DNA of 48,218 nucleotides. It comes from a bacterium (GTDB lineage Bacteria > Hydrothermota > 32-111). A program made the translations under genes and the position numbers. Numbering within the stretch: the stretch's first letter is position 1; each line of letters begins with the position of its first letter. The stretch spans positions 1 to 48,218 of the forward strand of contig JAQVDU010000003.1 in the NCBI GenBank assembly GCA_028698175.1. The letters are read 5' to 3'. Under the pieces are notes generated by a model that was not told the DNA's origin, made no database searches, and saw only the letters and a list, made by a program, of their open reading frames with translations. Positions 6,310-12,080 of the stretch are shown in pieces.

Positions 6310-7848
6310 ATGAAACTGGATATCAGATGGAGAGTTCTGATTGTAGCGCTGGTGTTGGTACTTTCTGTTTATCAACTCTATTTTACCTACAGATACTACA
6401 CTTTGTCCAATGAGGATAAGGTAAAGATGAAACCGGAGGAGATAAGCCGTTTAAAAGACAGGGCTCTTCACCTCGGTCTCGACCTTCAAGGCGGAATGAA
6501 CCTGATACTCGAAGTCGACAAGACCCAGCTCTCCAAAGACGAGGCTGACGGAGCTGTGGACAGAGCTCTGGAGATACTTAGAAACAGAATCGACCAGTTC
6601 GGAGTCTCCGAACCCACAATTGAAAAACAGGGCGCAAACAGAATCAATATACAGCTGCCCGGTGTGGTGGACAGAGAGAGGGCAAAGATGCTTCTCGGAC
6701 AGACCGCTCAGCTTGAATTCAGAATCGTAGCCGAAAATGACGTTTTTCAGAAGCTTATAGAGAATATTGACAAGAGGCTTGATGACCTCAAATATGAAGA
6801 GAATGAGCGTCTCGGAGCATCAGTTGATTTCAACGGCTCTGATTTTATTGTTTATCCTGAAAATATTCCGGTTATAAAGGATATTCTTGCAAATGAAGAG
6901 ATAAAGAAGCTCATTCCCGCCGACTACATAATTATGTGGGGCAGGGAGAAAGAGAAGGAGGGAACGACTGCCACGATGCTCTGCCTTGTAGACAGAAATC
7001 CTGTTTTAAAGGGAGACGCCATACTTGAAGCGCTTCCCGGAATAGGCACGAGCGACAATCCGTACGGAGTGAAAGTCCAGCTCACCATGAACAGAACCGC
7101 AAAAAACAAATGGGCATCCATCACCGGCTCAAACATCGGCAGAAGGATAGCATTTTCGCTTGATTCGGTTATTGTGTCTGCACCAGTGGTAAGGGAGAGA
7201 ATTCCTTCGGGAAACACTGAAATTTCAATGGGCACCGGAACAATAGACGACGCAAAGGACCTCGCCATAATACTCAAGGCGGGAGCTCTTCCCGCGCCGG
7301 TTAAAATTGTCGAGGAGCGTTCCGTTGGGCCTACCCTCGGATCCGATTCCATAAATCAGGGAATCAAATCAATGATTTACGGTGCGCTGGTTGTCTTTAT
7401 TTTCATGGCAATCTACTATGCAATGTCAGGCCTCATCGCTAACCTTGCAATGATACTGAATATGATAATCCTCCTTGCAGTGCTCTCTCTGTTCAGAGCG
7501 ACTTTGACTCTGCCGGGCATGGCAGGACTGATACTTCTCATAGGAACGGCAATCGACGCAAATGTCCTTATATTTGAAAGAATAAGAGAGGAGATAGCAT
7601 CTGGAAAGACAATGAAAACGGCAATATCAACTGGCTATGCAAAGGCATTCACTACGATTCTTGATGCCAACCTTACTTCGCTTCTGACAGCCCTGATACT
7701 CTACTGGTTCGGCACCGGGCCTATTAAGGGTTTCGCAATAACATTGGGCATAGGACTCGTGGTCAGCTTCTTCACTGCGATATTTGTCACGAGAATCATC
7801 TTTGATCTTATAACCAGCAATAAAAACTTTAAGCGGCTTTCAATATAA
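6310..7848 (+). CDS. secD: Protein translocase subunit SecD
   Basis: 512 residues. TM1 at residues 7-27 is followed by the conserved periplasmic entry GLDLQGGMNLILEVD (about 56-70) and the P1 domain motif ALEILRNRIDQFGVSEP. After about residue 355 there are five further membrane helices with the RND-type signature LIGTAIDANVLIFERIREE. SecD works with SecF at the SecYEG channel, using the proton gradient to pull proteins out on the periplasmic side. The gene has a good Shine-Dalgarno and is followed directly by secF. Length and domain order are normal for a separate SecD. Confidence 0.97.
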   Translation: MKLDIRWRVLIVALVLVLSVYQLYFTYRYYTLSNEDKVKMKPEEISRLKDRALHLGLDLQGGMNLILEVDKTQLSKDEADGAVDRALEILRNRIDQFGVSEPTIEKQGANRINIQLPGVVDRERAKMLLGQTAQLEFRIVAENDVFQKLIENIDKRLDDLKYEENERLGASVDFNGSDFIVYPENIPVIKDILANEEIKKLIPADYIIMWGREKEKEGTTATMLCLVDRNPVLKGDAILEALPGIGTSDNPYGVKVQLTMNRTAKNKWASITGSNIGRRIAFSLDSVIVSAPVVRERIPSGNTEISMGTGTIDDAKDLAIILKAGALPAPVKIVEERSVGPTLGSDSINQGIKSMIYGALVVFIFMAIYYAMSGLIANLAMILNMIILLAVLSLFRATLTLPGMAGLILLIGTAIDANVLIFERIREEIASGKTMKTAISTGYAKAFTTILDANLTSLLTALILYWFGTGPIKGFAITLGIGLVVSFFTAIFVTRIIFDLITSNKNFKRLSI

Positions 7849-7857
7849 GGAGGAATG

Positions 7858-9165
7858 ATGTCATTCTTAAAAATAAAGCTTCCGGAAATACAGTTTACAA
7901 AGAACAGAAAATACACATACGTTCTGTCTCTCGTTCTTATACTCATAGGACTCATTTCAATGTTTGTAAAGGGAGGCCTTGAGTCTGGAATAGATTTTAC
8001 CGGAGGAATAGTCCTTCAGGTCCATTTTGACAAAGAAGTCCACATTGACCAGCTGAGAAGCGCCGTGGAATCGGCAGGCTATAAAAACTCAATGATTCAA
8101 AAGTACGGCACGTCAAATGATTTCCTGATAAAGGTTCAGGGAGATTATGAAAAAGAGAAGGATACCATAGGCCCTGTTGTGACCGAGTATGCAACATACC
8201 CCAATCCCACCTACGGTGAAAAATCAGTCGCCTTGAAGGTGAAAGTGAAGGACAAAGAGAGCGCAATCAAAAACGTCTTTCTCCGTTCGGCAATCTTCTC
8301 TTCCGTTCAGGAAGTGAGCGCTGTTGACAAATACGACATGCTTGAAGAATCCGGAGCGATTACAATAGCAGTCGAAGGTTTTGCGAAAGACACAATAATA
8401 GACCTTTATGTCTTTGCAACCGACTATTCGGATAACGTAGGCCCAGAGAAGCTTATAAAAATTCAAGTGGCAAAAGACAAAAAAACCGCATCAGCGGTTT
8501 TGTCCGAATGGGTTGACACGACAGCATCAAAGACGGAAGCAAAGAGTGTCGTCTTCTCACCATCGGAAAAGCTTGTAAACCAGCTTAATGAAGCATTCAA
8601 AGAGAACAGCATCCGAGTCGACAGGGAAGAGGTCGTGGGAGCCGCAATGTCAAAGGAGCTTCAGCTGAAATCATTCTGGGTTGTGCTCTTCGGCATGCTT
8701 GCGATTCTTGCTTACATCTGGTTTAGGTTCACATTCCGGTTCGGAGTCGCTTCAGTTCTGGCTATCTTGCATGACGTTCTGATTACTTTGGGATTTCTCT
8801 CTCTTACAGGCCGTGAAATGTCAATCCAGATAATCGCGGCTCTGCTCACCCTGATAGGTTATTCTATAAATGATTCAATCATAGTATCGGACAGGATACG
8901 CGAAAACATCAAACTTATGAGAAAGGATTCTTTCGACCAGATAGTTAACAGGTCCTTAAATCAGGTCCTCGGAAGAACATTGATAACTGCGGGAACGACC
9001 CTATTCGTGCTTATCAGCCTGTTTTTATTCGGCGGAACAGTCATAAATGATTTTGCATTTGTTCTTATAGTGGGAATTATAGTGGGAACATACTCTTCCG
9101 ACTTTATCGTGGCGCCCCTTGTTCTTGACTGGGAGCTCAAGTATCCCACAAAAAAGAGGGGGTGA
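7858..9165 (+). CDS. secF: Protein translocase subunit SecF with an Ig-like insertion in its periplasmic domain
   Basis: About 435 residues, well above the usual 300-330. The core is normal: TM1, GIDFTGG near residue 47, the P1 strand/helix, VVGAAMSKELQLKSFW before TM2, and LIGYSINDSIIVSDRIREN in TM4-5. The excess is about residues 95-245 inside the periplasmic domain. Its pattern (NPTYGEKSVALKVKVKDKES near the start, YVFATDYSDNVG near the end) looks like a bacterial Ig/FN3-type beta-sandwich. The start is ATG 7858 rather than 7855, because AAGGAGG (7847-7853) leaves 4 nt instead of 1. It is coupled to secD and probably to the cNMP-domain gene downstream. Confidence 0.95.
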   Translation: MSFLKIKLPEIQFTKNRKYTYVLSLVLILIGLISMFVKGGLESGIDFTGGIVLQVHFDKEVHIDQLRSAVESAGYKNSMIQKYGTSNDFLIKVQGDYEKEKDTIGPVVTEYATYPNPTYGEKSVALKVKVKDKESAIKNVFLRSAIFSSVQEVSAVDKYDMLEESGAITIAVEGFAKDTIIDLYVFATDYSDNVGPEKLIKIQVAKDKKTASAVLSEWVDTTASKTEAKSVVFSPSEKLVNQLNEAFKENSIRVDREEVVGAAMSKELQLKSFWVVLFGMLAILAYIWFRFTFRFGVASVLAILHDVLITLGFLSLTGREMSIQIIAALLTLIGYSINDSIIVSDRIRENIKLMRKDSFDQIVNRSLNQVLGRTLITAGTTLFVLISLFLFGGTVINDFAFVLIVGIIVGTYSSDFIVAPLVLDWELKYPTKKRG

Positions 9166-9536: not shown

Positions 9537-12080
9537 ATGAAGCGCCTATCTCTTATTACGTATGTAATTTTTGCGGCTCTCATACCTTCAGTCATACATT
9601 CCCACGCTCCTCTGATAAGTGAGCTGGTTGCCGACCCGTCCACATATCTGGACAGGTCCGAATGGGTTGAAATTTTCAACAACACGCTAAATCCGATTCT
9701 CATAGACGGATGGAAAATAACAGACGGAGAGGGTATATGGACAATTCCCTCAAACGGATACTACCTCTATCCGAACGGAAAGATAACTCTTGCATGGTAT
9801 GCCGACACATTTAAAAGCTACTACGGATACGCTCCGGACTTCGGAGCTGTTGTCGGAGCATCCGGGGCGAGGCCTCTCTCTGTTTCCGGCACCATAACCC
9901 TTGCAAATGCCGGAGACCAGGTCTATTTGAAGAACGCGTCCGACTCCATAATAGATTGTTTCGCTTATGTGACAAAGTATACTACCGCAAATGCGGAGAG
10001 CGTCTGGTACCCAATATCAACCGTTCCGTCGACAAACGTTTCATTCATAAGATGGCCTGAAAATTCTGAAGGGCTTGAAGAGAACAGCGAGGTATCAGAA
10101 GTTCTCTCGGAAGTGTGGGCAAACGGTCTCGGACAGGCGACTTTAGGACCGGACACAGGAGGCCTTCATCCTCAGGGGCTCATTTTAAAAAACATTGCGC
10201 AAAACCCGGGTTCTCCCGATTTTCTTGATAAGGTCATTGTGTCATGCAATGCCACTTCCGATACAACCATCAATTACGTGAGGCTCTACTGGTCAAGCAA
10301 CAATTTCATTTCAACTGATTCATCCACAATGAACAAACAGGCCGGAGACACGACTTTTATAGACACGATACCCGCATATGCAAAGGGATTTGACATAAGG
10401 TACTACCTAAGGGGTGTTGACAACAGGGGGCGCACAGTATTCTCTCCTCCAGCGGCTCCCGCATCTTACTACAGGTACATTGTGGCAGACACTGGAGAAT
10501 CATACTTTGAAGTTCATTTTAACAAGACAGTTGACCCGTCTCTTGCGAACATGAACGTTGCAGTGGGGGAAGATTCTCTTGATTACCATCTGTGCAAGTA
10601 CATTCACAACGCCCAGAAGACGATTGACTGCTGTTTTTATGATTTTGACAGGCAGGTTGTTGCCGATTCCCTTGAAGCCGCGCATAACCGGGGCGTAAAA
10701 ATAAGATTCATTACGGATGTTGACAACAGGTCTTTAGCTCAGGTTGCCCAGCTTGAAGCTGCAGGAATAACTGTTATTGATGACGCATTTCCTGATTCCT
10801 ATGCAGGAAGCAATATTATGCACAATAAGTTCTGCATCATAGACACGACCTTTACCTTCACCGGTTCGTGGAATATCACGGACAATTGCACTGACAGAAA
10901 CGCAAACAATTCAATAATGATAAGAGACAGACAGGTTGCGGAAAATTACGTAAAGGAGTTCACGGAGATGTGGGGCTCTGCCACCATGACTCCCAACTCT
11001 GCAGTGTCAAAGTTTTCCACACAGAAGACTGATAATATTTCTCACGTATTCATTGTTGACAATGACACTGTCAAAGTGTATATGTCGCCCTCCGACGGGT
11101 GCGCTTCAAAGCTTATAAGCGCAATTTCGACAGCAAACAGCTCCATTTACTTCTGCATATTCGTATTCTCGCATCAGGGAGTCTCAGATGCCATGAAAGT
11201 AAAGTATGATGCCGGAGTTGACGTGCGCGGAATTTTTGACGCCACATACTGGAATGCCGACTATTCAAAATCCCTCGATATGAGAGGGCTGTGGAACACC
11301 GGAAACGACAATAACCCATGGTCGCCTCCTGCCGATGTTTTCAGGGATTCTGTTGACGGGAACCTTCTGCATCACAAGTATATGCTGATAGACGCAGACA
11401 AATGGGATTCAAACCCTATAGTCGCCACAGGCTCATTCAACTGGTCTGACGCGGCAGAGGACGGGAATGACGAAAACCTGGTACTGCTTCACTCAAAGTA
11501 TTTTGCCGACCTGTTCATTCAGGAATTCGCGGCTAGGTACGATGAGGCGGGAGGAGCTGATGCGATTTTAGTGGACACAAAACTCTTCCAGATGGATATT
11601 TCGGCAAGAAGAGAGAAGGAAAACGTAATAATCAGTTACAACATCGAAAACACATATGTTTCATCCGTTGAGATAGAATACAATGAGAAAAAAATCCATT
11701 CATCCTCTTCAATGAGAGGTTCATTTGTCCATGAGAACAGAGATAGTGGCAAGTATGATATATTTGCCGTAAGAGAGAGCGGAGTGAGGGAGCATTTGGG
11801 GCAGTTCTACATTGACAGCTTCGGTAGAGTGCTTTCGGTTGTTTCGGAGAACAACCTGTGGACAAAAAAGTCCCCCTACAAAGCGAAAATCAGCGGAGAA
11901 GGTATTGTCAATGTTTCGGTAATAAACGCAATTGGAGAGGTTGTGGAGAAGAAGGACATCGACCTTTCAAAGGAGACACACTATTCACCATCAAAAGATA
12001 TTTCGGGAGGCATTTACTACATACGCTTCACTGACAGCTCGGGAAACACTTTAAACGAAAAGGTGCTTAAACTAAAATGA
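9537..12080 (+). CDS. Secreted lamin-tail / double-HKD phospholipase D-like protein with C-terminal sorting domain
   Basis: 847 residues. A signal peptide (about 1-22) precedes a lamin-tail domain (about 24-145, ISELVADP then EWVEIFNNTLNPILIDGWKI). An Ig/FN3-like stretch follows (about 215-310, YYLRGVDNRGRT). Next come two phospholipase D catalytic motifs: HNKFCIID with GSWN near residue 430, and HHKYMLID with GSFNWS near 612. Two HKD motifs form one active site in this family, which cleaves phosphodiesters in lipids or nucleic acids. The last 70 residues resemble a T9SS sorting module (SGGIYYIRF then EKVLKLK). Expected outside the cell or on the surface. TAGGAG precedes the ATG. It overlaps the next gene by ATGA. 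Confidence 0.9.
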   Translation: MKRLSLITYVIFAALIPSVIHSHAPLISELVADPSTYLDRSEWVEIFNNTLNPILIDGWKITDGEGIWTIPSNGYYLYPNGKITLAWYADTFKSYYGYAPDFGAVVGASGARPLSVSGTITLANAGDQVYLKNASDSIIDCFAYVTKYTTANAESVWYPISTVPSTNVSFIRWPENSEGLEENSEVSEVLSEVWANGLGQATLGPDTGGLHPQGLILKNIAQNPGSPDFLDKVIVSCNATSDTTINYVRLYWSSNNFISTDSSTMNKQAGDTTFIDTIPAYAKGFDIRYYLRGVDNRGRTVFSPPAAPASYYRYIVADTGESYFEVHFNKTVDPSLANMNVAVGEDSLDYHLCKYIHNAQKTIDCCFYDFDRQVVADSLEAAHNRGVKIRFITDVDNRSLAQVAQLEAAGITVIDDAFPDSYAGSNIMHNKFCIIDTTFTFTGSWNITDNCTDRNANNSIMIRDRQVAENYVKEFTEMWGSATMTPNSAVSKFSTQKTDNISHVFIVDNDTVKVYMSPSDGCASKLISAISTANSSIYFCIFVFSHQGVSDAMKVKYDAGVDVRGIFDATYWNADYSKSLDMRGLWNTGNDNNPWSPPADVFRDSVDGNLLHHKYMLIDADKWDSNPIVATGSFNWSDAAEDGNDENLVLLHSKYFADLFIQEFAARYDEAGGADAILVDTKLFQMDISARREKENVIISYNIENTYVSSVEIEYNEKKIHSSSSMRGSFVHENRDSGKYDIFAVRESGVREHLGQFYIDSFGRVLSVVSENNLWTKKSPYKAKISGEGIVNVSVINAIGEVVEKKDIDLSKETHYSPSKDISGGIYYIRFTDSSGNTLNEKVLKLK

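Follow-up and report, generated by a model that had tools for sequence, protein, structure and literature searches.

An Ig-like domain inserted in the periplasmic domain of SecF in candidate division WOR-3, with relatives in large secreted proteins of the phylum

The window analyzed here is a contiguous stretch of 48,218 nucleotides (contig JAQVDU010000003.1) from a bacterium of candidate division WOR-3, and it contains adjacent secD and secF genes (Table 1). The secF product matches NCBIfam TIGR00966 with 292.9 bits (cut-off 160), in two stretches because an insert interrupts the model, and Pfam SecD_SecF_C (1e-59, 201.6 bits, cut-off 20.5) and Sec_GG (22.9 bits, cut-off 20.3). Together with the GG motif after TM1 and the neighboring secD with its P1 domain, these matches identify the protein as SecF; a first-pass annotation of the sequence had described the core SecF motifs as intact. 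The proton-channel residues of the E. coli proteins are SecD D519 and SecF R247. Read at the level of segments, IDANVLIFERI (SecD) and NDSIIVSDRIREN (SecF) are both intact.

Table 1 Features of the secD–secF locus in the window
Feature	Coordinates	Strand	Basis
secD, 512 aa, ordinary layout, directly upstream of secF	6310..7848	+	TIGR01129 447 bits vs cut-off 244; SecD_1st and SecDF_P1_head
secF, 436 aa, bearing the inserted Ig-like domain	7855..9165	+	TIGR00966; Pfam SecD_SecF_C and Sec_GG
P4 native part 1 (beta1-alpha1-beta2-beta3, residues 51-95)	8005..8139	+	DSSP of AlphaFold2 model; alignment with ordinary SecF
Ig-like beta-sandwich insert (predicted), residues 103-206	8161..8472	+	AlphaFold2 of the domain alone; conservation; profile relatives in secreted proteins
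Variable linker back to P4, residues 207-235	8473..8559	+	Low pLDDT; lowest identity among regions
P4 native part 2 (alpha2 236-247, beta4 253-261)	8560..8637	+	Model secondary structure; conserved in all SecFs compared
SecF transmembrane core, residues 266-430	8650..9144	+	Pfam SecD_SecF_C 245-427; invariant columns GYSIND..SDRIREN

Ordinary SecF and SecDF proteins (TIGR00966; structures 3aqp, 5xan, 5yhf and 5mg3) share with the window protein the GG motif, a ferredoxin-like P4, a six-helix RND core with NDSIIVSDRIREN and a secD gene directly upstream. They differ from it in the length of P4. The spacing between GG (residue 51) and R254 is 203 residues in the window SecF, which departs from the standard uninterrupted P4, whereas the spacing from GG to the RxDR motif is 63-95 residues, nearly all 63-80, in 36 ordinary SecFs from other families of the phylum. 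In the model the elements after TM1 follow in the order beta (51-58), alpha (64-73), beta (80-83), beta (89-95), seven strands (108-205), alpha (236-247) and beta (253-261), followed by the next transmembrane segment. Thus, the native P4 is a ferredoxin-like beta-alpha-beta-beta-[insert]-alpha-beta domain, and the helix SEKLVNQLNEAFKE is its alpha2 and lies outside the insert. Relative to ordinary SecF, the window protein has about 125-140 extra residues between beta3 and alpha2. The first-pass annotation had proposed an insertion of about 150 residues following a strand of P1. The extra segment is real, although the Ig fold accounts for about 104 residues of it (103-206) and the rest is a variable linker of 29 residues; the host is SecF's own periplasmic domain, usually P4 in SecDF, rather than P1. 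In the alignment of related SecFs that it had asked for, the 36 ordinary members of the phylum lack the insert. Its remark that it knew of no standard SecF with this layout holds within what was searched, chiefly SecFs of this phylum. We also found no description of a SecF with an Ig-like or other additional domain in the open-licence literature.

Based on AlphaFold2, residues 100-210 alone (49 homologs) form seven strands with a pLDDT of 94.9 and a pTM of 0.85, and the models show an autonomous Ig-like beta-sandwich placed between beta3 and alpha2 of P4. The Ig/FN3-like strand pattern noticed earlier is therefore matched by a predicted independent domain. The full-length SecF model (14 SecFs aligned) is of modest confidence (mean pLDDT 72.5, pTM 0.45; about 50-60 for residues 221-240), and the orientation of the Ig domain on P4 is not readable from it. 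A Foldseek search of the PDB returned generic Ig-like, E-set and FN3 sandwiches, of which the best are the sulfite oxidase dimerization domain (TM 0.66), NPC2, chitinase A1 FN3 and SrpA. Identities to the sulfite oxidase, NPC2 and chitinase domains are 10-18%, and the likeness is a generic sandwich resemblance without functional implication. None of the Pfam Ig families (Big_7, Big_5, Big_13 and others) exceeds its gathering cut-off on the window domain, and the inserts of other SecFs match these families weakly (best E 0.0043, Big_7). In sequence searches of the PDB, neither the domain nor its profile gave a significant match, to TRAP or to any other entry.

A profile built from the 14 SecF inserts only was searched against genomes of the same phylum. 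Outside SecF, matches were reported from 1e-20 to 1e-12, the strongest (E = 1.6e-20 in genome G029, 2.1e-20 in G054 and 9e-20 in G018) being proteins about 2000 residues long in which five Ig copies are spaced about 220-235 residues apart. In the G029 protein, Pfam places Big_5 (PF13205) domains between the Ig copies, and the protein begins with a sortilin-like propeller and ends with a type IX tail (Por_Secre_tail); Big_5 domains and type IX tails also occur in other proteins that bear the Ig domain. The SecF and secreted copies have in common the signature D..GP..PNPT.G...D...D..fD..E...D..GN.G. These matches show that the SecF domain is homologous, at the level of sequence, to the Ig domains interleaved with Big_5 in the large type IX-type secreted proteins of the phylum, and place it within a shared cargo-type Ig fold. 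The likeness to Ig domains of surface proteins pointed out in the first-pass annotation was thus right in detail. The arrangement differs, in that the secreted proteins carry about five copies and SecF, a translocase subunit anchored in the membrane, contains just one. Most likely, a cargo-type Ig domain moved into SecF, a direction we infer from the wider spread and tandem arrangement of the secreted copies.

Across the SecF and secreted copies, nine positions are at least 90% conserved: D103, P107, P116, D133, D158, E165, D190, N194 and G196 in SecF numbering (D4, P8, P17, D34, D59, E66, D91, N95 and G97 in the domain alignment). The strand order puts D103, D133, D158, E165, D190 and N194 at one end of the sandwich, beside the junction with P4. 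Conservation of these six residues at one end suggests a structural metal site, probably for calcium.

Two kinds of Ig-domain protein stand out in the same search. One is the large five-copy secreted protein, which is conserved at about 1600-2100 residues (L064-L069) and whose Ig domains belong to an undescribed family; in L064 these alternate with Big_5, and a sortilin-like propeller and type IX tail are present as well. The other is a tandem array of about 18-20 open reading frames of 176-220 codons (L081, G094:C3:1-12000) that represent small Ig proteins, nearly all of which match the SecF-type domain in their C-terminal part.

Of 147 genomes from candidate division WOR-3 (Caldifarciminota), 14 have the insert, and they are distributed over families f1, f2, f6, f8 and f11. 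One further f8 genome (G026) has a truncated case, with only the beginning of the insert at a contig end. Among named records the nearest is candidate division WOR-3 bacterium UBA2202 (79% identical; NCBI phylum Caldifarciminota). A contig scan with exact peptide patterns of one protein recovered nothing beyond a sister species and an ordinary-length SecF from Tissierellales. The insert is in frame in the 14 independent genomes, at identities down to 39%, which rules out an artefact or frameshift as its origin.

In a tree of the SecF core from which the insert columns were left out, the carriers do not group together. A clade of 20 ordinary SecFs branches from within them and leaves them paraphyletic, and f14, which lacks the insert, also falls among them, so that three changes are needed. 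A single clade of all insert-bearing SecFs is weakly rejected on this tree (AU p 0.045) and likewise on the RpoB tree (AU p 0.023), where four changes are needed. The tree of the Ig domains does not reject a single origin of the SecF copies (AU p 0.35) and is too short to decide. Since the SecF and RpoB trees both split the carriers, the simplest account is one gain, probably in an ancestor of f1, f2, f6, f8 and f11, followed by at least two losses. The f14 SecF (G024, L020) has 26 extra, low-complexity, unrelated linker residues exactly at the Ig site of its tree neighbors, and this linker may be a deletion scar. As read from the trees, loss in f14 and in the large nested clade shows that the insert is dispensable.

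Such a history fits a passive passenger, that is, a cargo-type Ig domain tolerated in a permissive P4 loop, perhaps stiffening or spacing P4 without binding a partner. The repeated loss with its possible scar and the flexible linkers on both sides of the domain are in line with this explanation, which we consider unlikely on account of the substitution patterns. Based on Nei–Gojobori estimates for each region of SecF, with the range taken from pairs without synonymous saturation, dN/dS is 0.02-0.23 for the Ig domain, compared with 0.03-0.26 in the two native halves of P4 and 0.03-0.07 in the membrane core; with synonymous sites saturated in several pairs, these values are good to an order of magnitude only. 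By this measure the Ig domain is maintained under purifying selection resembling that on the rest of P4 and is not decaying. The adjoining linker, by contrast, evolves faster and is the least conserved region of SecF, with the lowest identity of all. Signature residues also persist across families in which the Ig domain shares only 23-34% identity with that of the window. Selection for foldedness alone could explain part of both the low dN/dS and the conserved signature. In 10 of the 14 carriers no further protein matches the SecF-insert profile, which indicates that the copy in SecF is retained in its own right.

SecDF is ancient and conserved, and its periplasmic domains are considered the part that acts on substrates and makes contact with partners such as BAM. 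Being related to domains found in the phylum's secreted proteins and maintained by selection, the Ig domain probably contacts exported proteins or partner machines. The first-pass annotation had likewise suggested that it could bind substrates or another translocation factor. Given its anatomy, origin and position, we tentatively favor a contact module at the translocon exit, most likely a docking one, a proposal with somewhat less than an even chance of being right. From ferredoxin topology, beta3 of P4 would end at the membrane-distal tip, so that the sandwich would project into the periplasm. Two flexible linkers would carry it outward, and it would move along with the conformational change of SecDF. 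It could then dock a periplasmic partner (a chaperone, a BAM-type or type IX component, or YidC P1) or the emerging polypeptide, which would be held beside SecDF while export completes. There is precedent for such contacts: in E. coli the periplasmic domains of SecDF touch BAM (PMC7695460), and YidC P1 binds SecF (PMC8669966). We place docking slightly ahead of direct substrate holding, and regard the tolerated passenger as the main rival.

Direct holding would mean that the sandwich itself binds the emerging polypeptide as a holdase and adds to the pulling cycle of SecDF, which on balance we doubt. To our knowledge, no holdase role has been assigned to such Ig domains where they occur in secreted proteins, and this weighs against it. 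In its favor, the proton-driven cycle of SecDF involves rearrangement of P4 and P1 (PMC8669966), and hydrophobic residues of the Ig-like cradle of eukaryotic TRAP matter for nascent chains (PMC10279528).

TRAP also serves as a comparison for the favored docking role. The lumenal domains of TRAP (SSR) alpha, beta and delta are Ig-like beta-sandwiches that lie trans to the Sec channel; located at the exit of Sec61, they influence nascent chains (PMC10279528), and the SecF domain may act like them by convergence. In contrast to the SecF domain, they belong to separate subunits outside SecDF and share no demonstrated sequence similarity with it, which makes the likeness one of fold class only. The fold matches also include chains from two structures of secretory translocons (8rjc chain 5, E 4.6e-3; 9n9j chain 5, E 3e-3), one of which is a Sec61–TRAP complex, again with similarity of fold class only. 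On a broader reading, which is speculative and which we regard as improbable at present, a TRAP-like Ig exit module was built into the Sec translocase by domestication of an Ig domain from the bacterium's own type IX cargo, and SecF uses it to handle or hand over emerging envelope proteins. Gained, kept under selection and lost within P4, the domain offers a natural experiment on the function of SecDF periplasmic domains and a parallel to the sandwiches at the eukaryotic channel. Removing or grafting it would test directly which substrates or partners respond.

None of the genes considered as partners clearly co-varies with the insert, as SprA homologs, type IX tails, the YidC periplasmic domain and parvulins occur both with and without it. 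A role as substitute for a missing YidC periplasmic domain was rejected, since YidC_periplas is present in most genomes of either kind. Type IX secretion likewise fails to separate carriers from other genomes because its markers occur throughout the phylum: SprA homologs (SprA_N) are found in 137 of 147 genomes, and Por_Secre_tail in all 34 genomes tested, with up to at least 120 matches per genome and 57 in that of the window. Type IX secretion thus appears to be a phylum-wide trait (SprA_N, Por_Secre_tail; locus G000:C41:20121-21086), and we found no open-licence paper naming WOR-3 together with this system. Within the window, positions 9537-12080 encode a secreted protein in which a lamin-tail domain and two phospholipase-D-like domains are combined with a weak type IX tail.

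The abundance of SprA and of tails, and the membership of the SecF domain in the same family as domains of type IX-tailed proteins, would suit a cargo mimic, in which the SecF Ig domain pairs with Ig-containing type IX cargo or hands cargo to the type IX apparatus. We consider this very improbable, since it is disfavored by the distribution of profile-matching proteins. The lack of any other such protein in 10 of the 14 carriers speaks against pairing with like cargo, and most of the genomes rich in such cargo (G029, G054, G106, G109, G110 and G111) are not carriers, G018 being the exception. The failure of type IX markers to track the insert argues in the same direction.

Parvulins were present in all genomes tested and therefore do not track the insert either. 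Among them is a PpiD-like protein of about 600 residues with an N-terminal membrane helix and a parvulin domain (L132, G000:C135; L133-L139). Its parvulin domain is strongly canonical (E about 1e-22 to 1e-29) in the insert-bearing genomes and in G024 and weaker (1e-7 to 1e-19) in most insert-less genomes, a contrast that is confounded by phylogeny.
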